From positions 84,770-148,769 of the forward strand of contig QMRC01000002.1 of NCBI GenBank assembly GCA_003649205.1: a stretch of DNA of 64,000 nucleotides, in the 5' to 3' direction. Position 1 is the first letter of the stretch, and every line of letters starts with the position of its first letter. Made by a program: the position numbers and the translations under genes. Origin of the DNA: Thermoprotei archaeon. Lineage in GTDB: Archaea > Thermoproteota > Thermoprotei > Thermoproteales > B15-G16. Under the pieces are notes generated by a model. The model saw only the letters and a list, made by a program, of their open reading frames with translations, was not told the DNA's origin and did not search any database. This document shows positions 8,330 to 61,767 of this stretch, one piece after another.

Positions 8330-8749
8330 TTGAGCGGAGAAAGAGTCAACATAATCAAGGATAGAGCCTACGCATTCCTAAACCTAGCTAAAGAATTAAT
8401 CGATAAAAGACCTGACATAGCATCCTTCAACATCCACCAAGCATGCCAACTCAGAATCAAAGCAACACTACTTAGATTCACAGGTGAAATACCTAGAATC
8501 CACAGCATTAGAGAACTCCTAGGAATACTCGCAAAGAAGCTAGAAGACCTCAACTACAGAGAAGACGCCCTAAAAATCATCAACTTCATAAGAAAACAGA
8601 GAGAAGCACTCATTGACATAGAAGCAGCATACACCGAGTCAAGATACGGAATAGGAATCACCACTAGAAGCATGATAGAGGAAATGCTGAAAACAGCCGA
8701 AGAACTATTTAAGCTCCTAGACGAAGTCGAAAAACATGTACTGGGCTAA
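8330..8749 (+). CDS. HEPN-domain protein, partner of GGAAEDR-type MNT
   Basis: A 139-residue helical HEPN protein from TTG 8330. It belongs to a different HEPN subgroup from those at 429-4293: it has SFNIHQACQLRIKATLLRFTGEIPRIHSIRELL, and near the C-terminus a Tyr/Arg segment AAYTESRYGIG in place of the FYTPTRYP motif. It overlaps the following MNT gene by 14 nt. Degenerate relatives of both genes lie at 60239-60600 on the other strand. Predicted RNase toxin. Confidence 0.8.
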   Translation: MSGERVNIIKDRAYAFLNLAKELIDKRPDIASFNIHQACQLRIKATLLRFTGEIPRIHSIRELLGILAKKLEDLNYREDALKIINFIRKQREALIDIEAAYTESRYGIGITTRSMIEEMLKTAEELFKLLDEVEKHVLG

Positions 8750-9083
8750 ATACCACCTACAACACCTCAAAAAATGGAGAGAAGCAGCTGAAGCTATAGC
8801 AAAAGCAGTAAAAGACCTACACATCAAAGCAGAAGTATACGTCATTGGAGGGGCAGCAGAAGATAGATTAACAGTACTAAGCGACATAGACATACTCCTA
8901 TGCCTAGAAGAGAAACCAAAAATCGAAGACGTATGGATATTGAGGAGGAAAGTACTAGAGATAGCTATGGACAAGTACGGACTACCCATAGACTACCCCA
9001 TAGAACTCCACATACAGGACAAGAAAACCTGTAACCAAACACTACAACACAGAAAAGCCATAAAGATCAACACATCAACCTAA
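8736..9083 (+). CDS. MNT nucleotidyltransferase (GGAAEDR type)
   Basis: A 115-residue minimal nucleotidyltransferase in which the usual GS is GG: GGAAEDRLTVLSDIDIL at residues 38-54, with Asp 50 and Asp 52 as the metal pair. The C-terminus (KTCNQTLQHRKAIKINTST) looks frayed compared with the clean domain before it. It overlaps the HEPN gene by 14 nt. The remnant at 7951-8219 shares the same signature. Confidence 0.8.
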   Translation: MYWAKYHLQHLKKWREAAEAIAKAVKDLHIKAEVYVIGGAAEDRLTVLSDIDILLCLEEKPKIEDVWILRRKVLEIAMDKYGLPIDYPIELHIQDKKTCNQTLQHRKAIKINTST

Positions 9084-9639: not shown

Positions 9640-10149
9640 ATGAACGTTGAAATTACTATAAAATTACCTGAAGTAATTGCTAAACACATCAAGAATCTAG
9701 GTATCGACATAGAATCTAAGATCATCGACATGATCATTCAAGAACTTAACCTGGATCCTGAAGAAGAAGTTAAAGCTCACGTAGAGCTTGCAGTAAAGTT
9801 CCTAGAAGATGGAAGAAAGCTCATCAATAGGGATCCAGCTCAAGCTAGTGAAAAGCTGTATAAAGCTGCTGAAGAGTGTGTAAAAGCATTAACAATACAA
9901 TTCAAGCTAGAGAACATCATGAGGAAAATCAGAGAAAGAGGTAGGTGGACCGTTACAGAACTTGAGAAAGCTGCTGAGATCATAAGCGACAGGATTGGTT
10001 CATGGTTCTACGATGCTTGGGATCACGCATGGACCCTACACGTATGGGGATTCCACGAAGCAAAACTAGATAGCGAAGCCGTGAAGAGAAGACTACCATA
10101 CATAGAAAAGATAGTGGAAGAAACAAAGAAGATAATTAGAGGTCTTTAG
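9640..10149 (+). CDS. PaREP1-family protein
   Basis: A 169-residue protein. The N-terminal part (ITIKLPEVIAKHIKNLGID) looks like a short strand-helix DNA- or protein-binding module. The core has KLINRDPAQASEKLYKAAEECVKAL, and the C-terminal part has WDHAWTLHVWGFHEAKLD, the hallmarks of PaREP1 (Pyrobaculum aerophilum repeat family 1). The helical core resembles HEPN folds, so an RNA-related or TA-like role has been suggested for such families, but no activity is established. Closest copies in the window are 16553, 17207 and 19398. Confidence 0.85.
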   Translation: MNVEITIKLPEVIAKHIKNLGIDIESKIIDMIIQELNLDPEEEVKAHVELAVKFLEDGRKLINRDPAQASEKLYKAAEECVKALTIQFKLENIMRKIRERGRWTVTELEKAAEIISDRIGSWFYDAWDHAWTLHVWGFHEAKLDSEAVKRRLPYIEKIVEETKKIIRGL

Positions 10150-10576: not shown

Positions 10577-11485
10577 ATGAGAATCTTAACTAGAGATCAC
10601 GTAGTTCAGAAACTCCGTGAAGTACTCTCTAAGAGGAAAGAAGTTAAGCTAGCTTACCTCATAGGCTCCATCGCAGAGAGAGGATTTAGCTACCACGACG
10701 TAGATGTAGCAATCCTACTCGACTGCAACCCCAACGACAAACTCAAACTCCTAGGAGAAATACACAACGACATATGTAAAGCACTCTCCATAAGCGACGA
10801 CCGTGTAGACATAATACCCATAGACGAAGTAGACTGGCACTTCAAATACAGAATCGTCAAAGGAATCAAACTAGTAGACAGAGATGACGCTAGCCTACAA
10901 CTCATTAAAGAACTCAACAACATCTACCCAGAACTACGACTACTACTTAACCTCAACCTCAGAGAGTGGATGAGGATGAACGACCCAAGAAGCATAGACT
11001 GGACCATAGTTAAGAAACGCATGGACTACGCCTTCAAAGCCACAGAAATCCTCAACGAAATCCTAACCAAACCCCTCGAAGAAATAACATCATCAACAAT
11101 ACTCAAACTAGCATTCGAACGCCTAGTACACACAATAGTTGAATCAATTCTAGACACTGCACGACACATAGTATCAGTAAAAGGATGGGGGCCAGCTGAA
11201 ACGTATCGAGACTACATCGAAATACTTCACAAACAAGGAATAATCTCACCCGAACTAGCCCAAGAACTCTACAAATTCATTACCTGGAGAAACATACTGG
11301 TACACAGATACATCGAAATAAACTACTCAAAACTATACGAAGACTCAAAGAAACTAACTACCATTGTAAGAGAGTTCGAAAAACAAATAATCAAGCTCAA
11401 GGAAAAGCACGAAGAAACCAAACACAACAAACCACAACAACAGCCACATAACCCCCAAGAGATTTCACAAAGCAAAAAGTACTGA
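10577..11485 (+). CDS. Single-chain MNT-HEPN (nucleotidyltransferase-HepT) fusion
   Basis: A 302-residue protein joining both halves of a toxin-antitoxin pair. Residues 1-105 are an MNT domain: LIGSIAERGFSYHDVDVAIL carries GS at 30-31 and Asp 41 and 43. Residues about 150-270 are a DUF86/HepT-type HEPN domain with FERLVHTIVESILDTARHIVS and WRNILVHRYIEINYSKL, the latter supplying the R-x(4-6)-H type catalytic element. A Gln/Pro-rich tail follows. Fusion implies constant one-to-one stoichiometry, unlike the classical labile pair. A frameshifted homologue is at 4657-5497. The ATPase at 11674 begins 188 nt downstream. Confidence 0.85.
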   Translation: MRILTRDHVVQKLREVLSKRKEVKLAYLIGSIAERGFSYHDVDVAILLDCNPNDKLKLLGEIHNDICKALSISDDRVDIIPIDEVDWHFKYRIVKGIKLVDRDDASLQLIKELNNIYPELRLLLNLNLREWMRMNDPRSIDWTIVKKRMDYAFKATEILNEILTKPLEEITSSTILKLAFERLVHTIVESILDTARHIVSVKGWGPAETYRDYIEILHKQGIISPELAQELYKFITWRNILVHRYIEINYSKLYEDSKKLTTIVREFEKQIIKLKEKHEETKHNKPQQQPHNPQEISQSKKY

Positions 11486-11673: not shown

Positions 11674-12714
11674 ATTCACGAAATTAAGTTCATAAACAGG
11701 GTACCAGAACTCAAAGCCTTAAGGGATTGGTGCGCAAAACAGAGAACAACACCTCTCTACATCTACGGTCCTGAAGGCTGTGGAAAGACAAGACTACTGA
11801 GAGAATTCATCAAGAAATTCAATGAGTACTTCGGAGATGACGCAATTGCAGTATACATCGATGCACTAGAGAGAAGCTCAGTAGAGAAAGCCATACTAAC
11901 GTCGAGATCCGTGAAACTAGCTACAGAAACCCTCGAGAAAATAATCGAGAAATTCTCCGGTCTAAGCGTTGGAAGAATTCTCGCTGAATCAATAACATCA
12001 ATACTCGAAAAAGCAATCATAAAGAAGAAACTCGAAGACAACTACATCCTCATAGCAATCGACGACATAACCAGAGCACTTGGCCTCCAACAAATTGAGT
12101 GGTACATCAAGTGGCTTTACGAACTCCTATGGAAGATCAGAGAAGAGTACAGACCAAAAGCCATAAACATAATAGTAACGACATCGGAAGGAACCAGCCT
12201 AAAATTAGTATCAAGACACAGACACGCACACATCACACTACTATGGAACCTACCCAAAGAAGCATTTAAAGAACTCTTCCACGAACTAAAACCACCAAAC
12301 AACACAGAATTCGAACAAGTATGGAAACTACTAGGAGGAAACCCAGGAAGACTAATTGAACTAGCTGAAGAATACAACTGGAACCTCGAAAAATGGCTCA
12401 ATAACCTCATGAAGAGACTAAAACCACTCGCCGAAGAAATCGCTAGAAGAGGACTAATCAAAGAACTGAAACAACTAATCGAAGACCCCGACAACGTATG
12501 GTACAAAGCATCCCCCAAAATAGGTGAACTATACGACCTCCTAGTAGAAAACAACGTATTCATGTACAAAGGATTCACAACACTAAACGAAACCGAAATA
12601 CCCAAAGACCCAGAACTCGGAATCGGACAAGACTACACATGGCAAATACCCGCATACAGATACATACTAGACAAACTACTCAAAAACAAAACAACAACCC
12701 CCACACAAACCTAA
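11674..12714 (+). CDS. STAND-type archaeal ATPase 1, apparent ATT start
   Basis: A P-loop ATPase of the archaeal/STAND group, about 346 residues. The open frame after the stop at 11650 includes KFINRVPELKALRDW and Walker A GPEGCGKT, then IAIDDITRALG as Walker B, TTSEGTS as sensor 1 and GGNPGRLIELA as sensor 2-like. The C-terminus ends PELGIGQDYTWQIPAYRY, shared with the other copies. No ATG, GTG or TTG exists in frame before 11911, which lies past Walker A. ATT 11674 aligns exactly with the start of the next paralogue (start-I-E-L-K-F-V-N versus start-H-E-I-K-F-I-N), and a G-run lies 6 nt upstream. So either ATT is used or an ATG was lost. Confidence 0.75.
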   Translation: MHEIKFINRVPELKALRDWCAKQRTTPLYIYGPEGCGKTRLLREFIKKFNEYFGDDAIAVYIDALERSSVEKAILTSRSVKLATETLEKIIEKFSGLSVGRILAESITSILEKAIIKKKLEDNYILIAIDDITRALGLQQIEWYIKWLYELLWKIREEYRPKAINIIVTTSEGTSLKLVSRHRHAHITLLWNLPKEAFKELFHELKPPNNTEFEQVWKLLGGNPGRLIELAEEYNWNLEKWLNNLMKRLKPLAEEIARRGLIKELKQLIEDPDNVWYKASPKIGELYDLLVENNVFMYKGFTTLNETEIPKDPELGIGQDYTWQIPAYRYILDKLLKNKTTTPTQT

Positions 12715-12829
12715 AAGAAGACATAACCCTAGACCTCAACCAAACGAAAAATCCTCAGCAAGAAACAAGACCTAAAAAGTACCATAGCTACTACCTACCA
12801 AAACAGAGAAGACAACTCAGGGGAACAAA

Positions 12830-13819
12830 GTGATAGAGCTAAAGTTCGTAAATAGAGAAGAAGAATTAAAGACATTACATGAATTAGCAAATAAAGGAAC
12901 AACACTACCAATCTACCTCTATGGACCAGAAGGTTGTGGAAAGACAAGACTACTAAAGGAATTCATAAAGAAAGTCAATGGGGTAGCCCTGTACATAGAC
13001 GCACTTGAGGGTGAAGACCCAGAGAAGGCACTACTCACAACACCACTAAACATACTCACCGACATAGTGAAAGATTTGATTAAAGAAGTAGCAAAACCTG
13101 TAGGACAATACCTATGCCTAAGTCTATGGAAAATACTCAAACACATAGAAACCAAACTACAGATAAGAGGTAAACCCCTAATCATAGCTGTAGACGACAT
13201 CACAAGAGCAATAGGTCTAAGTAAAGTCGAGTGGTACACAAAGTGGCTATACGAACTAATTAAGAAACTACAGGAAGACTATCGACCAAGTTCCATTTTA
13301 ATCATAGCAACAACAAGCGAAGGCAAGAGCCTAGACCTAGTAATGAGACACACATACACACACATCAACCTAGTATGGAACCTAGACAAAGAAGCCCACC
13401 AAGAACTAATACAACAACTAAAACCACCAAAAAACATAGACCCAGAACAACTCTGGTACTACACAGGAGGAAACCCAAGAGCAACAATCGACATAGCAGA
13501 AAACAACTGGAACATAGATAGCTGGATCCAGAAAATAGAGGCAAAACTAAGACCACTCATCAGAACCATAAGAAGCCTAAACCTAACCAATGAACTACAG
13601 AAACTAATCGAAGATCCAGACAACATAGAAAAACAACCATCACAAAAAATGGAACAACTCTACACAATACTCGTAGAAGCAAACCTATTCATGTACAAAG
13701 GATTCAGAACAATAAACGGAAAACACATACCTAAAAACCCAGAACTAGGAATAGGAGAGTACTACGCATGGCAGATACCAGCATATAAGCACGCACTAGA
13801 GCAACTACTACAGAGATAA
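12830..13819 (+). CDS. STAND-type archaeal ATPase 2
   Basis: A 329-residue ATPase from GTG 12830, with GGGG five to eight bases upstream. The N-terminus KFVNREEELKTLHEL is the helix that precedes Walker A (GPEGCGKT, 32-39). Walker B is IIAVDDITRAIG with Asp 122-123; TTSEGKS and GGNPRATIDIA follow. The C-terminus PELGIGEYYAWQIPAYKHAL is the family signature. Unlike many pfam01637-type proteins I see no DEXX nuclease or winged-helix domain at the end, so an effector partner should be separate. Second of three tandem copies. Confidence 0.85.
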   Translation: MIELKFVNREEELKTLHELANKGTTLPIYLYGPEGCGKTRLLKEFIKKVNGVALYIDALEGEDPEKALLTTPLNILTDIVKDLIKEVAKPVGQYLCLSLWKILKHIETKLQIRGKPLIIAVDDITRAIGLSKVEWYTKWLYELIKKLQEDYRPSSILIIATTSEGKSLDLVMRHTYTHINLVWNLDKEAHQELIQQLKPPKNIDPEQLWYYTGGNPRATIDIAENNWNIDSWIQKIEAKLRPLIRTIRSLNLTNELQKLIEDPDNIEKQPSQKMEQLYTILVEANLFMYKGFRTINGKHIPKNPELGIGEYYAWQIPAYKHALEQLLQR

Positions 13820-13838
13820 CAGTAGAATTCACTACCTA

Positions 13839-14130
13839 TGTAGCGGATAAAACCAATCATAAGGCTTCACACACCTAGAATCATCCACCCCACCATTAAT
13901 CCTCCCAGGAACAATCAACGAATCATTCCAAGACCCTCAACCACAACCACATTAAGATAAACATCATTCAACTTCAGCAAATAGTACACAGCACCCATCT
14001 CATCAACGTAAACTTCACTAGGACCACCCAAAACTCTCTCAAGAACACGAACAAACCCCCTCAAAAATTCTCAACACCTAACACACTTAAAACATCCCTA
14101 TGCCTCTTTACCACATGTAAATAAAGCCTA
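13839..14130 (-). pseudogene. Remnant of an unidentified gene, divergent from ATPase 3
   Basis: The minus strand reads SHRLYLHVVKRHRDVLSVL, then after a frame change FLRGFVRVLERVLGG and PSEVYVDEMGAVYYLLKLND, and after another NDSLIVPGRINGGVDDSR. Amphipathic pattern and codon choice look like former coding sequence. The central block (SEVYVDEMGAVYYLL ... VYLNV) recurs in a second remnant at 60595-60745 (SEVCIDESDVVYYLL ... VYLNV), which also lies divergently upstream of a STAND ATPase. Family unknown to me; two separate remnants in the same position suggest a partner gene of the ATPase. Confidence 0.55.
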
Positions 14131-14278
14131 TGAGAAATCACTACATTACACCACCAACAAGAAACCTCAGAACACAACACCCAACAACCAAAGACAACAC
14201 ATATCCAAAAAGAGTTAAGTCTAAGCCAGGAAAAGAAACCAGAAAGAGGAAACTAAGTTACAAAATGAGGCTTAAGAC

Positions 14279-15301
14279 ATGAGTACAGAACCCAAGTTCG
14301 TCGACAGAGAATACGAACTAAAGACCCTGGAAGAACTATCGAGAAGAGACCTACCAACACCACTCTACATCTACGGTCCTGAAGGCTGCGGAAAGACAAG
14401 ACTACTGAGAGAATTCATAACAAACTTCAACGGAATAGGAATCTACATAGACACACTAGAGAGAACCAACATAGAGAAAGTACTAACAGTAAACCTAGCA
14501 ATACCAGAGCTAAGAGAGTACATAGTGTCAATAGCCAAGGAATACCTCGGAAACATAGGACTAATCCTCGCACAAAAACTATACACAGTACTAGAGAAAA
14601 TAGCCACAAAATACAAACTAAAAGGCAAAAACCTCGTAATAGCTGTCGACGACGTAACACAAGTACTCGGAATACACGAAATAGAACGCTACATGAAATG
14701 GCTCTACGAAGCAATAACCAAGATAAAACAAGAATACAGACCAGAATCAATACTCATACTAGTAACAACATCAGAAGGACAAAGCCTACAAAGAATAATA
14801 AGACACACCTACACCAAAGTAAACCTACTATGGAACCTACCAAAAGAAGCCTTCACACAACTAGCAAATCAACTACAACCACCAGATAGAGACACAGTAG
14901 AGAAAACCTGGGAACTAACAGGAGGAAACCCAAGAAGACTAATCGAAATAGCTAAATGGTACAGATGGAACATAGACCAATGGCTAGAAGACCTAAAAGA
15001 AAACATAAGAGACGTAGCTAAAACAGCAATAAAACTCAACCTAGTAGAAGAACTAATCAAAGTAATCGAAAACCCAGACAACATAGATGTAGTAACAACA
15101 GAGAAAATGGAAAGACTCTACAAAATCCTACTCGAAAGAAACCTAGTAATCTACACAGGAATACCACTACTACAATCATGGACAACAAAACAAAGACACC
15201 TAACACCCAACACCAAACTAGGAATAGGAAGATACTACTCATGGCAAATACCAGCATACAAATACGCACTAAAACAACTACTACAGAAACAACACCACTA
15301 A
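14279..15301 (+). CDS. STAND-type archaeal ATPase 3
   Basis: A 340-residue ATPase from ATG 14279. KFVDREYELKTLEEL leads into Walker A GPEGCGKT (33-40). Walker B is VIAVDDVTQVLG, followed by TTSEGQS and GGNPRRLIEIA. The C-terminal signature is KLGIGRYYSWQIPAYKYAL. It is separated from ATPase 2 by the remnant at 13839-14130 and has its own upstream region. Plus-strand composition is strongly A-rich with few G. Function is unknown; by family, a nucleotide-controlled switch or sensor. Confidence 0.85.
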   Translation: MSTEPKFVDREYELKTLEELSRRDLPTPLYIYGPEGCGKTRLLREFITNFNGIGIYIDTLERTNIEKVLTVNLAIPELREYIVSIAKEYLGNIGLILAQKLYTVLEKIATKYKLKGKNLVIAVDDVTQVLGIHEIERYMKWLYEAITKIKQEYRPESILILVTTSEGQSLQRIIRHTYTKVNLLWNLPKEAFTQLANQLQPPDRDTVEKTWELTGGNPRRLIEIAKWYRWNIDQWLEDLKENIRDVAKTAIKLNLVEELIKVIENPDNIDVVTTEKMERLYKILLERNLVIYTGIPLLQSWTTKQRHLTPNTKLGIGRYYSWQIPAYKYALKQLLQKQHH

Positions 15302-15970: not shown

Positions 15971-16102
15971 ATGAGGAGATTCATAGGGTTGATCAGAGAT
16001 CACAGGACTAAGATTGGAAGGATCGTTGCTAAGAGAGTGAGTGTGCGTAGCTATGGTCGTGAGAGTGAGGATAAGGATAGAGAGGAGCGGAAAGGTTGTT
16101 GA
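15971..16102 (+). CDS. Possible small basic protein
   Basis: A 43-residue reading from ATG 15971 (MRRFIGLIRDHRTKIGRIVA ...) with many Arg and Lys. It overlaps the start of the next gene in another frame, an arrangement common for coupled archaeal genes. Too short to assign, and it could be chance. Confidence 0.35.
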   Translation: MRRFIGLIRDHRTKIGRIVAKRVSVRSYGRESEDKDREERKGC

Positions 16103-16478
16103 AACTAGCGCCCTAGCAAATAGCAGTTACGAAGCTGAAACACCACAGCTACTGATACCCATTCGCCTTGCTGAAACCTTGGGCCTGTGGCCTCCTACAA
16201 AGGAGCTTACGGAGACCGTGTATGAGACTGCTGGTGCCCCACTCAGAGTATGGATAGCTCCAAGAGCGTGTAGAGTCAGGGTCATAGCTGAAGATACTGA
16301 GTCCCCCGATGTCATAGCCGATGCAGTGATCTCACCGATAGCAGACGAGGTTCTCAGCGATAAGCTCATCAGCAAGCTTCAGATAGCGTTAGAAGATGTA
16401 GAAGAAGGACTATGGAGATTCCGATGGGAACCAAGAGACAAGCTGAGACGCAGCGAACCACCCAAGCTCTGGAAATAG
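16053..16478 (+). CDS. Retropepsin-like (clan AA) protein lacking the catalytic DTG
   Basis: A 141-residue protein from ATG 16053; a TTG at 16041 would add four residues. The layout (beta hairpin VRIRIERSGKVVETSALANS, then LIPIRLAETLGLWPP, then repeated beta strands) resembles archaeal aspartic-protease-like proteins, in which a DTGA motif precedes a helix with the pattern LAxxLGL. Here the expected Asp-Thr-Gly reads Glu-Thr-Ser, so catalysis is unlikely. The retropepsin-like gene at 57288-57695 keeps DTGS. Possible structural or regulatory role. Confidence 0.5.
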   Translation: MVVRVRIRIERSGKVVETSALANSSYEAETPQLLIPIRLAETLGLWPPTKELTETVYETAGAPLRVWIAPRACRVRVIAEDTESPDVIADAVISPIADEVLSDKLISKLQIALEDVEEGLWRFRWEPRDKLRRSEPPKLWK

Positions 16479-16552: not shown

Positions 16553-17065
16553 ATGAGTGAGGAGAACTCTAGCTTCAATACAGTAACTCTAAAACTCCCT
16601 AGTATCATCATGGAGAAACTCAAGGATGTAGGAGTTGACGTAGAATCGCTAATAATTGATTTAATTGTAGACAATCTAAACCTTAAACCAGAGGAGGAAC
16701 TTGAAGTTCATAGGGAACTAGCTAGAAGGTTCCTAGAGGAAGGTATGAAGCTCATCGATGTAAATCCTGTACAAGCAAGTGAGAAGCTATACAAAGCAGC
16801 TGAGGAAGCTGTGAAGACACTTGTACTCAAACACAGGCTACGCAGCATAGTGGAAAGAGTTGAGAAACGTGGTAGGTGGAAAGTAGAAGACCTCTTCGAC
16901 GCTATTAGTGAGTTGAGACAGATCTACAGCGATGACATTAGGAGGTGGTGGGACTCTGCATGGAATCTCCATGTATGGGGATTCCATGAGGCGAAGGCTA
17001 CGAAGAGGTACGTGGAAGAAAGGATCCGTGATGTAGAGGAGCTGGTAAAGCTAGCTATAGAATGA
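16553..17065 (+). CDS. PaREP1-family protein
   Basis: A 170-residue PaREP1 protein. N-terminal module TVTLKLPSIIMEKLKDVGVD, core NPVQASEKLYKAAEEAVKTL, C-terminal NLHVWGFHEAKATKRYVEER. It is the best relative of the 52-residue deletion form at 9134-9292. Preceded by a TATA box at 16509. The first of two adjacent PaREP1 genes, followed by 141 nt without a gene. Confidence 0.85.
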   Translation: MSEENSSFNTVTLKLPSIIMEKLKDVGVDVESLIIDLIVDNLNLKPEEELEVHRELARRFLEEGMKLIDVNPVQASEKLYKAAEEAVKTLVLKHRLRSIVERVEKRGRWKVEDLFDAISELRQIYSDDIRRWWDSAWNLHVWGFHEAKATKRYVEERIRDVEELVKLAIE

Positions 17066-17206
17066 GGCTCAGCAGTACATATGCATAGTCTACAGAAGAT
17101 GGTGATGAGATGCGAAGCTCTATCAATACATGACTTTAGCGCTGATATAGCGCCATAGATAAGTTTGATGAGGTGCAACCAAGTCATAGATACGGGTGTG
17201 AGCTTG

Positions 17207-17737
17207 ATGGAAGCCATCTACGTCCCTAAGAAGCTTGTTGATGAAGCTAGGAAGATGGGTATCGACATAAGCGAACTCGTACTGAATGCTATCGCTAACG
17301 TGCTTGATTTAGATCCAAGTGAAGTTGCTTCTGCTAGGCTTGAGCTTGCTGAGAAATCTCTTGAAGAAGCTAGAGAGTTCATCAAGCAGAGAAATGCTGT
17401 TCAAGCGAGCGAGAAGCTGTACAAAGCCGTTGAGGAGTGCATCAAGGCATTAGCAGAGGTATTCAACGCTTCACAACTCAAAGAAGTTAGAAAGAGAGGA
17501 AAGTGGGATACATGGCTTCTCGGTATGGCTGCAACCGATCTCTCGAAAAGGCTCGGCGAAGAAAGGATTAGGTTAGCATGGAAAGACGCGTACGACATAC
17601 ATGTATGGGGTTTCCACGAAGCGAAGTACAGAGTAGAGGATGTGGAAGCAGCACTCCCACTAGCAGAGTGGTTGCTCAGCTACACGAAGCAAGTAATAAG
17701 TGAGAAGCTTAGAGAACATAAAGAGAAGCAAGAGTAG
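17207..17737 (+). CDS. PaREP1-family protein
   Basis: A 176-residue PaREP1 protein from ATG 17207. The frame is open to 17165, but the extra 14 residues do not fit the family. AIYVPKKLVDEARKMGID is the N-terminal module. NAVQASEKLYKAVEECIKAL and DIHVWGFHEAKYRVEDV are the core and C-terminal hallmarks. It is followed after 8 nt by the 17746 gene, probably one operon. Function unknown. Confidence 0.85.
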   Translation: MEAIYVPKKLVDEARKMGIDISELVLNAIANVLDLDPSEVASARLELAEKSLEEAREFIKQRNAVQASEKLYKAVEECIKALAEVFNASQLKEVRKRGKWDTWLLGMAATDLSKRLGEERIRLAWKDAYDIHVWGFHEAKYRVEDVEAALPLAEWLLSYTKQVISEKLREHKEKQE

Positions 17738-19158: not shown

Positions 19159-19401
19159 ATGTTTGAGAAGAGCGTTACTATCAATGGCTTTAAGAGCATA
19201 CGGGAAGGTAAGCTAGATGAATTTACAGAAATAAACATCTTCGTATGTAGAAACAATACGGAGGAAGTCTACTGTACTCGAAGCTCCAACCCCCAAATAA
19301 CCGCAGGAATACTACACCCCCATAAATCCATAAATCCAGAAGAGGCAAAACTAGTACTAAGTCTGGAATCCAGGCACAGGAGGAGAGGGGCTAACCCATG
19401 A
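19159..19401 (+). pseudogene. Remnant of OLD/SMC-like ATPase with frameshift inside Walker A
   Basis: The start MFEKSVTINGFKSIREGKLD followed by FTEINIFVCRNNT is the N-terminus of an ABC-type (RecF/OLD-like) ATPase. It is comparable to FRLFEYLELPLNQVTILVGR with NNTGKST in the intact gene at 50828. After RNNT the frame is shifted by an extra base: the next frame gives STVLEAPTPK, the continuation of the P-loop and its helix, before a stop. The later residues of this frame are therefore noise. Little of the protein beyond the P-loop remains. Confidence 0.6.
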
Positions 19402-25499: not shown

Positions 25500-26636
25500 T
25501 TACTTAGAATGTTTGGCAAGTAATTCCCTCTTCACAACATCAAGTCTTCCATCATTTTCAATAAATACCTTAACTGCTTCAGCAAACAGTGGTGTAGTCC
25601 AAGCAAAGTACTGACCAATACCGGGCATATCCTTAGGAGGAGTCACACCTAGAAAGTCCTGCACCAAAAACGGAACAACTAAACTATCCTCAATCAAGAC
25701 CTGTCGAATCAACGATATAGAGGGATCCATCCCCTGCAGTATGTCGGGATCCTCAACCACCTGAATTAATCGTCTAAGCAAATCACCCTCATCAATTCCA
25801 CGTTCACTACACAACACACTAAGTTTCTGAATAACACTAGTAACAAGACCCAAAACATCATCAAGATACTGACTAAATGACCCACGATACTCATATACCC
25901 ACTTGATGATTTCACGTGGATTACCACCAGTCACCAAGTACACAGATTCTGGATCGAGATCACTACCTAACTCCCCCAACAAATCACGTACACCATCAAG
26001 ACCTAAATTCCAAACAACACTCACCCTAACCTTACGCGTCTTCAACAACTCACCAACCACAGAACCATAGCTAGTCGAAACAATACTACAAACCCTATAC
26101 CCCTGTCCAAGCAAATCATTAATGAAGTTATAGAGGTGCTCCACAACCCTCTTTGCCTCCTCACCACGCACTTCATCAACAACAACCAACACATACTCGT
26201 AACCATACTTCTGCAATAGGGAAGAAATCTTATCCAACAACTTAGAAAGTACAGAGAGTAAGGGCGAACCCCCTGCCGCTATGCTGCACACCATATCGAA
26301 TAAGTCACGTAAGTCCTCACGCATCGAAAGTGCGCTACGCAATCTACTCAGAGATTCCGGCTCTTCACAGAGGATGCTGGATAACACGTGAGATTGTTTT
26401 GAAACACCATACGTGAATGCATTGAGCAGAAAACTCTTACCACAACCTCTAGGTCCATAAAGTACCTGGACAAAAGCGCTAGAACCTGTAAGAAGATCAA
26501 CAAGCCTACATATCTCATCTCTACGATCAACAAGCCTACAAACCTGTCTATACTCCCTAGCTCTCTCAAGTACATCCCAAAACCTCAGACTACGCGTAAA
26601 CCAAAGGTAGAGACAAGCCGAAATAATATCGCCCAA
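25500..26636 (-). CDS. STAND-type archaeal ATPase 4, operon with HD hydrolase
   Basis: A 378-residue diverged member of the ATPase family at 11674-15301. Walker A GPRGCGKS is at 61-68. Walker B YVLVVVDEVRGEE has Asp 154-Glu 155. A GGNPREIIKW block follows, and a reduced form of the C-terminal signature, PGIGQYFAWTTPLFAEAVKV. Its N-terminal 50 residues are longer than in the tandem copies (LRFWDVLERAREYRQVCRLV). It is the second gene of a two-gene minus-strand unit, 86 nt after the HD hydrolase. The Glu in Walker B suggests active hydrolysis. Confidence 0.8.
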   Translation of the reverse strand: MGDIISACLYLWFTRSLRFWDVLERAREYRQVCRLVDRRDEICRLVDLLTGSSAFVQVLYGPRGCGKSFLLNAFTYGVSKQSHVLSSILCEEPESLSRLRSALSMREDLRDLFDMVCSIAAGGSPLLSVLSKLLDKISSLLQKYGYEYVLVVVDEVRGEEAKRVVEHLYNFINDLLGQGYRVCSIVSTSYGSVVGELLKTRKVRVSVVWNLGLDGVRDLLGELGSDLDPESVYLVTGGNPREIIKWVYEYRGSFSQYLDDVLGLVTSVIQKLSVLCSERGIDEGDLLRRLIQVVEDPDILQGMDPSISLIRQVLIEDSLVVPFLVQDFLGVTPPKDMPGIGQYFAWTTPLFAEAVKVFIENDGRLDVVKRELLAKHSK

Positions 26637-26722: not shown

Positions 26723-28489
26723 TCAATCACTTACCTTGACTATATCATTAAATCGCTCCGCCAAATACTTAGCTAACTCCTGAAGATCCTCACTAGATAA
26801 TGCCCTACAAACCTCCCAAGGCACGTAAATCCTATATGAACACAGACTACGAGGAACAGTCGCCACAACTTCAATAGCTTCACCTCCAGCTCTTACCAAC
26901 ACACTTGATCTACATACAATTTCACATCCACCTCCAATTTCGAATACCGGCAGGGAAATGAACACCAAAGGAAGACCACACACATCAACAAAGTCCAAAC
27001 ACCGATACCTAAGAGACCTCACAAACAAATCCTGTAAATCCAAGAACTGAGAACATAAACCACGACGCTCTAAGAAATCAAACATAGCATTAGTAAGCTC
27101 AACCTCAACCTCCAACTTACGACGAAGATCAAGACGAATATTAGTCCTCAAGCTAGCAATACAACACGGCAGTCTCTGCACCTTGAGATCCTCAAGCAGG
27201 TACTCAGTGTACCTAAGCAACAACCCCTCCCGCTCCCTAACCTCCACACGCCTCTCACGCAGAAAATCCGCAATACGCACTAACAAAGCCTCATCCGTAG
27301 TAGCTACAAGACGAAGAACCTTAGTACCAACATCTAAATCCCTCTCAGCAGATGAACTCAAGTACGCACAGGTTATGTGCAAGAGAAGTTCACGCACAGC
27401 CCTACTCTCATCAGACTCATAGATCTCAGCATACTGGTGAAGCCTCCTAACAAAAAGCTCCTGAATCAAAGGGACATAACTATCAGGAACCACAACTACA
27501 AGTCTCTTCCGACCCCCTACCTCCACGAGACTAGGTCTCAAAGCCCTAGCCATTCGCGACCAATTAACAACAACCTCACCCCACACATGGAGAGAATCCC
27601 TATTGAGGTAATCCAAGCGATCAAGATCCAGCACACAATCGTCCATAACGAATCTGATAAGAGGATCAACAAAGTCCTCATAGAAAAGCTCTAGATACCT
27701 ACTCAGATCAGAACCCTTCAAGACACCATCAAATGACTTAACAAATACAGTACCCCTACTCGATGAAGGGTAAGCCAAAGCAGCCTTTAAAACAGCCTCA
27801 CCAACAAGAGAAACTCCACTCCTCCTCAATAAATCAAGAACAACCCTACGCAACTCAGCCAAATCCACACTAAATAGAGGATTACTAGGCTCCTGAGCAA
27901 GATTAAACGCCACATGCAGCATAAACTTATCAACACGCTCAATAGAGCACAAACCCAAGAAACTAGTCACCCTCCCAAGCAAATGCCTCAAAACATCCTC
28001 CAACACATGACTCCAACTCGAATGATATAGATCATGAAGAAGAGCCGCAGCAACAAGACCAGAAGTAATATCCTCCACCAAGCTCTTAACATCCCGACCC
28101 AACACCTCCTCAAAAAACCTCCTGAGCATACCAACCGAACCCAAATACCTACAAACTAAGTCACATAGCAGGCACTTCCACTCCCCCAAAAACAAATACG
28201 TAAGAACAGCAACCCCAACACAGTGCTCAAACCGAGTATGAGTAGCACCAGGATACCTAAGCCACGGTAAGATAGATAACTGTCTAACAAACACCAACCT
28301 CTGAAATTGAGGCAAGGTCATAAGCTCATATAGAAAACGCGGAACCCTCACATACCCATACAACGAATCATAAACAACAACATCATCGCCAGAAACCAAC
28401 CACAACCACCCAACCAGAAAAGACAAAACAAATACATAAACCCTACAGCAACAGCAACACGAACCAAGTATAACACCCCATAAACACAA
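26723..28489 (-). CDS. SAMHD1/dGTPase-like HD-domain phosphohydrolase
   Basis: Up to 588 residues. The first 30, with five Cys in a row and many Trp, are probably not translated; the domain proper starts near residue 33 (DDVVVYDSLYGYVRVPRFLY). PQFQRLVFVRQLSILPWLRY then GATHTRFEHCVGV gives the first His. ALLHDLYHSSWSHVLED supplies the HD pair at 152-153 and two further His, and DLDRLDYLNRD the last Asp. This full metal-site set is that of dNTP triphosphohydrolases. The C-terminal half is long and helical. It is the first gene of a unit with ATPase 4. Likely nucleotide or nucleic-acid phosphohydrolase; a defence role is inferred. Confidence 0.8.
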   Translation of the reverse strand: MCLWGVILGSCCCCCRVYVFVLSFLVGWLWLVSGDDVVVYDSLYGYVRVPRFLYELMTLPQFQRLVFVRQLSILPWLRYPGATHTRFEHCVGVAVLTYLFLGEWKCLLCDLVCRYLGSVGMLRRFFEEVLGRDVKSLVEDITSGLVAAALLHDLYHSSWSHVLEDVLRHLLGRVTSFLGLCSIERVDKFMLHVAFNLAQEPSNPLFSVDLAELRRVVLDLLRRSGVSLVGEAVLKAALAYPSSSRGTVFVKSFDGVLKGSDLSRYLELFYEDFVDPLIRFVMDDCVLDLDRLDYLNRDSLHVWGEVVVNWSRMARALRPSLVEVGGRKRLVVVVPDSYVPLIQELFVRRLHQYAEIYESDESRAVRELLLHITCAYLSSSAERDLDVGTKVLRLVATTDEALLVRIADFLRERRVEVREREGLLLRYTEYLLEDLKVQRLPCCIASLRTNIRLDLRRKLEVEVELTNAMFDFLERRGLCSQFLDLQDLFVRSLRYRCLDFVDVCGLPLVFISLPVFEIGGGCEIVCRSSVLVRAGGEAIEVVATVPRSLCSYRIYVPWEVCRALSSEDLQELAKYLAERFNDIVKVSD

Positions 28490-57287: not shown

Positions 57288-57695
57288 TTAGAGTAGTAGT
57301 GTGGCTCCTGTTAGTTTGATGCCTTCTCTTGGGTCTAGTACTATTCCGTACTTGTCCATGGTGCCTGAACCTATGATTAGTTCAGGTAGTTTAACTTTAC
57401 GTCCTTCAATCTCGATCTTCTCTACGAACTTATCTACAATGAGTGCTGTTTCAGGTGGTAGTAACTCGATGTCGTCTATTATTATGGTTATTTGAGCGTA
57501 CTTATCTGCTTCTGCAAATTCACCATTTACTAGGTAGAGCTTAATTGTTTTGGGGAGCTTCGTCCATTTAGGGCCAAAGTTCTTTTCGAAGAAGGTGCGC
57601 TGTATTACGGTATGGCTTGAACCTGTATCGAATAGTGCGGTGCAGTGGGCTACTTTATCCATGAACTTGATCTTTATGTTCTTTAATGCGCGCAC
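57288..57695 (-). CDS. Retropepsin-like (clan AA) aspartic protease homologue
   Basis: A 135-residue protein. TALFDTGSSHTVIQRTFFEK holds the DTGS active-site motif (23-26) and the following flap-region residues. KYAQITIIIDDIELLPPE and LPELIIGSGTMDKYGIVLDP provide the later strands, with the L-I-I-G-x-x-x-M-D-x-Y-G-I block typical of the family. One domain, so it would work as a dimer. Archaeal members have no established substrate. Compare 16053 (motif lost). Confidence 0.75.
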   Translation of the reverse strand: MRALKNIKIKFMDKVAHCTALFDTGSSHTVIQRTFFEKNFGPKWTKLPKTIKLYLVNGEFAEADKYAQITIIIDDIELLPPETALIVDKFVEKIEIEGRKVKLPELIIGSGTMDKYGIVLDPREGIKLTGATLLL

Positions 57696-60759: not shown

Positions 60760-61767
60760 GTGGTGCTTATGATCGATCAAAGTACGAACTTCAAAATATA
60801 CATCGAGGGTATAGGTAAGTGGATTAGCTTTGTTGATAGAGAGCGAGAGTTAAAGCAACTCATCAACCTAGCAACAAGAGGAAATCCATTCCCTATAGCC
60901 ATATACGGACCTGAAGGTTGTGGAAAAACAACACTACTGAAGTACTTGACCAAACAACTCAAACAACATGAAAACTACATAGCGATCTACATAGACGCAC
61001 TAGAACAGCAAGATCTAGCGAAAGCCATAGCATGCACACATCACGAACTATGGGAAGTAGTGACATCACTAGTCGCCATAACCCCTGTTGGAGAAAACCT
61101 AGCAAAATCAATCACCACAATACTTCGTAAACTCCACGAAAAAATATCACTGAAAGGTAAGAAGGTAGTAGTCGTAGTAGATGATGTGTACAAAGCAATA
61201 GGACTCAACAATGTAGCAAGGTACACAAAAATGCTCTATGAATGGGTTAATTACCTACACACAAACTTCAACGTAAGTACTGTGCTCTTCATACTAACAA
61301 CGTCAGAAGGAGAATCGAAGAGAGAACTGTATCGACACACCTACGTACACGTGTACATGATGTGGAACCTACCGAAGAAAGGACTTGAGGAACTAGCTAA
61401 GCAACTCGAAGCACCAATAGATATCGAAGCGCTGTGGAAACTAACAGGGGGGAACCCAAGAGCAGTAATAGACCTCGCAATACACAATTGGGATGTAGAT
61501 AACTGGACGAAGTACATAGAACGAAAAGTAACGTCAACAATACGCGACATAGATCCAAGAGAATTGAAGACCTTAGTAGAGGACCCAGATAGCAACTGGA
61601 GAATAGCTACCAAACTCGAAGAAAGAGGACTAATGATGGAACTCAACAGAGCACTAGTAATAGGAGAAGAACCAAACCCCAATCCAGAACTAGGTATAGG
61701 AAGAGAGTGGGCATGGCAATTACCAATCTACAGACAAGTAATCGAGAAAATAGTAAGCAGTAAGTAA
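60760..61767 (+). CDS. STAND-type archaeal ATPase 5
   Basis: 335 residues from GTG 60760, or 332 from ATG 60769. WISFVDRERELKQLINLATR leads to Walker A GPEGCGKT (50-57). VVVVVDDVYKAIG is Walker B, TTSEGES sensor 1, GGNPRAVIDLA the sensor 2 region. C-terminal signature PELGIGREWAWQLPIYRQVI. About 20 extra N-terminal residues compared with 12830. The sequence is complete, although its divergent neighbours are all remnants. Confidence 0.85.
   Translation: MVLMIDQSTNFKIYIEGIGKWISFVDRERELKQLINLATRGNPFPIAIYGPEGCGKTTLLKYLTKQLKQHENYIAIYIDALEQQDLAKAIACTHHELWEVVTSLVAITPVGENLAKSITTILRKLHEKISLKGKKVVVVVDDVYKAIGLNNVARYTKMLYEWVNYLHTNFNVSTVLFILTTSEGESKRELYRHTYVHVYMMWNLPKKGLEELAKQLEAPIDIEALWKLTGGNPRAVIDLAIHNWDVDNWTKYIERKVTSTIRDIDPRELKTLVEDPDSNWRIATKLEERGLMMELNRALVIGEEPNPNPELGIGREWAWQLPIYRQVIEKIVSSK

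Follow-up and report, generated by a model that had tools for sequence, protein, structure and literature searches.

A tandem array of STAND-like ATPases in a Thermoprotei archaeon, and the linkage of its family to PaREP1 genes in one branch of relatives

What does an ATPase act upon when it carries no effector of its own? The question is raised by a 64-kb stretch of contig QMRC01000002.1 of a Thermoprotei archaeon (the window, meaning all 64,000 nucleotides analyzed), in which five ATPases of family PF01637 have in common a Walker A motif, a GGNP block, and a conserved tail. Three of them are encoded in tandem, all on the + strand (11674-12714, 12830-13819, and 14279-15301). A first-pass annotation had taken these proteins for STAND-type ATPases without an attached effector, for which a partner or target must therefore exist. 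In keeping with a partner, the neighbors of the family across genomes are non-random, HEPN genes (PaREP1, HepT) being enriched. The linkage between ATPase and PaREP1 genes is statistical and strand specific, and it is found in one branch of the family. The ATPase genes of the window are the following.

11674-12714, + strand: ATPase copy 1 (PF01637 in the genome search); no standard start codon before 11911
12830-13819, + strand: ATPase copy 2 (PF01637, Pfam E 3.9e-44)
14279-15301, + strand: ATPase copy 3 (PF01637, Pfam E 1.1e-45); AlphaFold model with a mean predicted local distance difference test score (pLDDT) of 94.9; winged helix at about residues 256-340
15221-15292, + strand: tail of copy 3, comprising the final strand of the wing and the terminal helix (residues 315-338)
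25500-26636, - strand: diverged ATPase copy (PF01637, Pfam E 1.6e-19) with tail AWTTP, 86 bp downstream of a gene for 588 amino acids (aa)
60760-61767, + strand: ATPase copy 4 (PF01637, Pfam E 3.4e-48)

All five copies announced by the first-pass annotation are present, and the motifs ascribed to them stood apart from two details. Only the diverged copy departs from the Walker A sequence GPEGCGKT, having GPRGCGKS instead; the GGNP block is GGNPR in all copies except that at 11674, which has GGNPG. The tails of the four less diverged copies are GIGQDYTWQIPAY, GIGEYYAWQIPAY, GIGRYYSWQIPAY, and GIGREWAWQLPIY; that of the 25500 copy is GIGQYFAWTTPLF, with T replacing Q. Four copies scored 151.6, 156.7, 164.9, and 71.1 bits against PF01637 and the 11674 copy reached 176.4 bits in the genome search, all above the curated cut-off of 33.2. 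The latter copy has no in-frame ATG, GTG, or TTG before 11911; the codon at 11674 is ATT, and the closest ATG upstream is out of frame, on the far side of a G-run. Translation may begin at this ATT, the assembly may be wrong here, or the start codon may have been lost.

STAND NTPases are characterized by a P-loop with Walker A and B motifs, a GxP-like block, and a winged-helix domain; a fused effector and sensor repeats are common, perhaps not defining. The conserved columns are present here (G33-K39, D124, and G215-P218), as is a winged helix in the model, and the STAND-type assignment was borne out by the Pfam scores, the fold of the model, and its structural matches. The lack of an attached effector was likewise confirmed: the open reading frames (ORFs) of the window ATPases, of 329 to 378 aa, contain no further Pfam domain, and none of 217 ATPase ORFs matched both the ATPase and the PaREP1 profiles, as a natural fusion would. 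Since a fused effector and sensor repeats were not found in the window ORFs, we do not call the family NLR. Sequence searches of the PDB with the family returned generic P-loop matches only, and PADLOC gave weak matches only for 30 members (mad8 in 25 of them, with E values down to 3e-7, and PDC-S01 and PDC-S20 less often), of a strength possible for any P-loop ATPase.

In an unbiased neighbor survey, we clustered the ORFs of 69 stretches of about 20 kb around ATPases, some of them overlapping, and of 62 stretches drawn at random from the 14 genomes concerned. The most enriched non-ATPase cluster was PaREP1 (representative PF05942, E 3.5e-27), present in 35 ATPase stretches versus 1 random stretch. 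A second, PaREP1-like cluster, whose representative is the window gene at 19398, occurred in 19 versus 3, and a joint profile of the two clusters detected a PaREP1-like ORF in 46 ATPase regions versus 3 random ones. The linkage was then quantified genome-wide in 12 genomes whose chromosome is a single contig, by 2,000 circular shifts applied to 277 of 322 PaREP1 matches and to 58 ATPase arrays comprising 80 of 89 ATPase matches. PaREP1 was found within 300 bp of 23 arrays (expected, 1.4; maximum among shifts, 6), within 1 kb of 30 (2.1; 9), and within 10 kb of 42 (10.1; 23). The neighbor-gene statistics that the first-pass annotation had called for thus do not show random neighborhoods. HepT was present within 1 kb of five arrays (expected, 0.43), a number reached by none of the 2,000 shifts.

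The linkage depends on orientation, as 34 of 37 ATPase-PaREP1 pairs within 450 bases are on the same strand and 3 are on opposite strands. At five loci, two of which have a shortened PaREP1 ORF, a PaREP1 gene comes first and overlaps the following ATPase gene by 4 bases. The paired distances of 25 ATPases and their adjacent PaREP1s were correlated (r 0.36), a value matched in 11 of 5,000 free permutations and in none of 5,000 within-family permutations.

PaREP1 itself is greatly expanded in Thermoproteales, with 7 to 40 matches per genome in the 12 genomes. A profile, A3, was built from the PaREP1s of ATPase regions; its 66 matches above 230 bits constitute class A, and the 84 weaker listed matches constitute class B. 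Adjacency to an ATPase in the same orientation was observed for 21 class A versus 3 listed class B PaREP1s (p 2.5e-6), a contrast that is partly circular because the profile was derived from ATPase neighbors. Class A belongs to PF05942 (E 3.5e-27), with conserved stretches resembling LHDYQYNGPDPD and RNAAGKAFQAW. Its model (pLDDT 94.4) matched the HEPN structures 2q00 (Z 12.4; root mean square deviation [rmsd] 2.4; 116 residues), 2hsb (Z 11.5), 1wol (10.3), 1o3u (10.1), and the HEPN domain of sacsin (10.0), Z values that helical bundles in general reach; Foldseek alone gave E 0.034. On this basis class A PaREP1 is predicted to have the HEPN helical fold. Passages of the Makarova 2009 survey describe PaREP1 as an expanded HEPN family found without MNT operons.

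The first-pass annotation had also proposed a private C-terminal signature, and a structure prediction as its check. In the model of the 14279 protein, the C-terminal region forms a winged helix composed of helices 256-264, 268-271, and 275-286, strand 290-292, insert 293-319, strand 320-322, and helix 325-338. The signature residues G315, G317, A321 (consensus), W322, Q323, and P325, which are 97 to 100% conserved among 67 sequences, lie where the wing ends and the last helix begins. The model matched 2QEN (PABY2304; Z 16.1, rmsd 4.9, 277 residues; model residues 4-333) and 2FNA (SSO1545; Z 13.8, rmsd 5.5, 275 residues; model residues 3-332), which have the same PF01637 fold including the C-terminal winged helix, and at the equivalent place 2QEN ends in NTYKIADPVVATVLR. 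The tail of the window clade reads GIGxxYxWQxPxY where the solved proteins have xYxIxDPxx, and PF01637 members outside the clade have different ends. Because the model fits 2QEN and 2FNA, 2QEN has an end at that place, and the outside members differ, the tail appears from the model to be the general winged-helix end of PF01637, only the wording being clade-specific. The structure check thus returned a standard winged-helix end, and a new domain was rejected since the tail is part of the winged helix. In profile-profile comparison with ten standard PF01637 members, the local alignment covered the ATPase core only, and a global alignment had to be forced before the tail was paired with the standard YxIxDPxxREA end; the equivalence of the two ends therefore rests on the model. 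The family profile matched 168 unique full-length ORFs, among them an obvious false match and some that are broken; 150 of the 168 have the tail pattern in its strict form and 160 in its loose form. The family also differs from the two solved proteins by its tandem arrays and by the PaREP1 linkage in one branch.

The next structural matches of the model were Cdc6/Orc1 (2qby, Z 12.6; 2v1u, Z 11.9), the plant NLR NRC4 (Z 12.6), and CED-4 (Z 11.7), and Avs3 was among its Foldseek matches. Orc1/Cdc6-like proteins that bind DNA through their winged helix and regulate the replication or transcription of an island would fit the first of these matches, and the 60760 copy also matches the orc1/cdc6 model weakly, at 30.4 bits. 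However, the cut-off of that model (NCBIfam TIGR02928) is 181.3 bits, far above the scores of two window copies (17.0 and 30.4), and over the 67 sequences the mean net charge is -3.5 for the winged-helix domain and -1.3 for its helix 3, an acidity that disfavors DNA binding and makes such a role very unlikely.

The linkage suggests that an ATPase and its adjacent PaREP1 form a two-gene stress or defense module. We tentatively propose, with a confidence that stays somewhat short of even, that in the main Thermoproteales branch the ATPases control a separately encoded HEPN protein, a STAND-like switch being paired with PaREP1. They would be minimal STAND-like AAA+ switches composed of nucleotide-binding, helical, and acidic winged-helix domains, with the tail closing the fold. 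Having no effector of their own, they would bind and act in trans on separately encoded HEPN proteins, chiefly of one PaREP1 subfamily, with HepT and MNT genes contributing at some loci. The nucleotide state of the ATPase would keep the HEPN protein inactive, or activate it upon a trigger, such that infection or stress would free an RNA-directed HEPN response; the same scheme might extend to the copies of the window. The ATPase is a candidate partner for most PaREP1 genes because most of them are without MNT, and because there are precedents in RloC and in HEPN-ParA/Soj pairs. In RloC and PrrC, as described in passages of PMC3710099, a HEPN nuclease is likewise under ATPase control; there the ATPase domain is of the ABC type, whereas here a STAND-like ATPase is encoded by a separate gene.

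The order of nucleotide-binding, helical, and winged-helix domains is also that of NLR/NB-ARC and Avs STAND proteins, in line with the NRC4, CED-4, and Avs3 matches. In contrast to those proteins, members of the present family are mostly 330 to 390 aa long, and neither sensor repeats nor a fused effector was seen in them. The WQ pair of the tail might conceivably be the counterpart of the MHD motif of NB-ARC proteins. A more specific version of the proposal, which we find doubtful, is a split archaeal NLR-like system in which arrayed minimal switches (nucleotide-binding domain plus winged helix) would serve as variable sensors and act in trans on a class A PaREP1 effector.

Alternatively, the ATPase might be an antitoxin proper in place of MNT, which binds and blocks PaREP1 without any sensing, loss of the ATPase freeing PaREP1. 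The ATPase does occupy the MNT position of HEPN-MNT modules, and of 27 PaREP1-ATPase pairs only one had an MNT-like ORF (searched with six seed proteins) within 3 kb. Passages of PMC3710099 propose a toxin-antitoxin role on the same grounds for the dyad of a HEPN gene (MAE_18760 family) and a ParA/Soj ATPase gene in the MNT place; the present ATPases differ in being AAA+/STAND-like with a winged helix, and the HEPN family here is PaREP1. A HEPN-fold partner is also common to type VII (HEPN-MNT) toxin-antitoxin systems, yet adjacent HEPN and MNT genes are not a general feature of PaREP1-ATPase pairs; they were found at loci L165 and L145 and, in fused form, at 10577-11485 of the window. In L165 (genome G001) the genes are all on one strand, spaced -23 to 155 bases apart; a small unknown gene comes first and is followed by ATPase, HEPN, MNT, ATPase, HepT, MNT, ATPase, and PaREP1. 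L145 (labelled Acidilobaceae) reads HEPN, MNT, ATPase, MNT, PaREP1. Three features speak against a plain antitoxin: HepT in L165 retains its own MNT beside the ATPases; gene order is variable (PaREP1 first in 10 and ATPase first in 11 same-strand class A pairs within 350 bp); and in genomes G003 and G007 two PaREP1 genes, of which one is interrupted, have five ATPases next to them, more than neutralization would call for. We regard this alternative as distinctly improbable.

A number of observations weigh against ATPase control of PaREP1. Adjacent listed ATPases are missing from 45 of the 66 class A PaREP1s. HEPN genes of family PF05168 were not enriched (within 1 kb of 2 of the 58 arrays; expected, 0.86), and the distance correlation was not significant under within-genome permutation (matched in 300 of 5,000, and in 416 of 5,000 for an earlier pair set). 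Class A lacks the arginine of the HEPN Rx4-6H motif, as H120 is at least 90% conserved with no conserved R 4 to 6 places before it; passages of PMC3710099 likewise describe this active-site R as not conserved in Parep1/8. With that arginine missing, RNase activity of PaREP1 cannot be assumed. A 2013 table (Anantharaman, PMC3710099, seen in passages) lists Parep1/8 operons with MNT plus restriction endonuclease genes, so that PaREP1 is not wholly without other partners. Two more clusters were enriched in the neighbor survey, one glycosyltransferase-like (named by eye; 25/69 versus 3/62) and one of PD-(D/E)XK/DUF3782 proteins (17/69 versus 2/62), and the ATPase regions are for this reason also variable islands. 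In the genome of the window, PaREP1 was within 1 kb of none of 10 arrays (two copies on contig C23 being left out), and class A PaREP1 was not found.

Kinship narrows the linkage further. In a quick tree of 156 ATPases, 36 of 39 PaREP1-linked rows (PaREP1 within 1 kb) fell into one supported branch of 117 rows, which contains none of the 11 own-genome rows; the latter are placed outside it, close to Pyrodictiaceae, Desulfurococcales, and Guaymas bins, together with three more linked rows. When arrays were collapsed by identity, the groups that still had PaREP1 within 1 kb numbered 23/57 at a threshold of 80%, 11/37 at 70%, and 4/18 at 60%.

ATPases and PaREP1, both lineage-specific expansions, might thus merely co-accumulate in variable islands as hitch-hikers without joint function. 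Such islands would account for the two additional enriched clusters, for the class A genes that have no ATPase next to them, and for the own genome, where no PaREP1 is close. They account less well for an excess that peaks within 300 bp (23/58) and on one strand (34 versus 3), for the 4-base overlaps at five loci, and for class B PaREP1s of the same genomes, which are little linked (3/84 listed). PIN toxins, too, stand apart from the ATPases: by their coordinates, none of 26 in four genomes is within 3 kb of a listed ATPase, a comparison of little power. ATPase control of PaREP1, its NLR-like version included, becomes less likely, and island hitch-hiking more likely, in view of the tree, of the 2013 operon table, and of the partial circularity of the class A contrast; we still consider hitch-hiking unlikely.

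How do these considerations apply to the window itself? The genes of interest near its array are the following.

8330-8749, + strand: HEPN member of the HEPN/MNT gene pair that precedes the array (PF05168, E 1.9e-20)
8736-9083, + strand: MNT gene overlapping the HEPN gene (PF01909, E 3.4e-8)
9640-10149, + strand: PaREP1 (HEPN family) gene (PF05942, E 1.3e-31)
10577-11485, + strand: MNT-HepT fusion, nucleotidyltransferase plus RNase HepT-like (PF01934, E 9.7e-22; PF18765, E 6.3e-11)
16553-17065, + strand: PaREP1 (HEPN family) gene (PF05942, E 3.6e-29)
17165-17737, + strand: PaREP1 (HEPN family) gene (PF05942, E 1e-35)

The HEPN/MNT neighborhood noted in the first-pass annotation is real, in that the MNT-HepT fusion, a single ORF of 302 aa, ends 188 bp upstream of ATPase copy 1; the PaREP1 link, on the other hand, belongs to a branch that lacks the window copies. 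PaREP1 genes (9640, 16553, and 17165) flank the array at distances of about 1.3 to 1.9 kb, and the gene at 19398 looks PaREP1-like too. A radius of 3 kb around the ATPase contained some HEPN, MNT, or PaREP1 gene in 3 of the 10 regions from the own genome, in 7 of the 27 loci most similar to the window copies, and in 24 of 50 other named loci, versus 3 of 62 random central 7-kb windows, the named loci being from genomes other than those of the random windows. A similar-looking MNT-HepT fusion occurs at L082 (2825-3670), 10 bp past an ATPase.

Several other genes deserve mention. A protein of about 130 aa (cluster c8; representative without a Pfam match) was encoded in 10 of the 69 ATPase regions and 0 of the 62 random ones, four times directly upstream of an ATPase (examples, L165 7101-7511, L183, L167, and L181). 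The 588-aa gene that lies 86 bp before the diverged ATPase (26723-28489) has an HD-type motif by eye (HDLYHSSWSH) and no match in Pfam or NCBIfam. Two small window proteins, 57288-57695 and 16041-16478, look retropepsin-like by eye (DTGSSHT in the former); NCBIfam returned nothing for either and Pfam nothing for 16041-16478, and similar-looking genes adjoin ATPases in L140, L144, and L216. In the same genome, a 460-aa gene, ADP-ribosylglycohydrolase-like by eye, lies 38 bp ahead of the ATPase at 39000 of contig C5 (L163, gene 16). The 291-kb contig C3 (L003, L004, L161, and L162) has mirror-image, equal-scoring copies at both ends (ATPase 12624/277819; PaREP1 2800/288339 and 22345/268740), which are a long inverted repeat, real or from assembly.

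The ATPase family is expanded and concentrated in one order. The own genome contains 17 matches to the 14279 protein, fragments included, of which the eight next best full-length ones are 40 to 50% identical, a number of relatives that by sequence comparison appears far beyond chance. Matches at 1e-5 were found in 26 of 31 genomes of the order, the own one included. In a sample of the phylum, 16 of 121 genomes matched the family profile at 1e-40, 13 of them from the same order. When named genomes were scanned, 139 relatives were confirmed and 78 loci retained, from Thermoproteales, Desulfurococcales, Pyrodictiaceae, and others; most of these loci are in metagenome bins, where misbinning is possible. 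One such case is L112, on a contig labelled Calditenuaceae, whose PaREP1 and ATPase are 100% and 99.7% identical to those of genome G012; because of this near-identity the contig was probably misbinned or very recently transferred, and cross-class conservation was rejected. No relative was confirmed in viral contigs (two peptide patterns, 79 matches) and none was found in plasmids and phages with the 14279 protein as the query, and a viral or plasmid origin was rejected.

The family and the fold of these ATPases were already known; what is new here is PaREP1 linkage, as the mark of a candidate partner. Passages of the open-access literature that name paREP1, Makarova 2009 included, contain no statement of such a link, the subscription literature being mostly outside this survey. 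If ATPase control of PaREP1 holds true, two unexplained expansions, of PaREP1 and of the ATPases, would become one testable module, and class A PaREP1 would gain the partner that it mostly lacks. Archaea would then have a STAND-like switch and a HEPN-fold effector encoded as separate genes.

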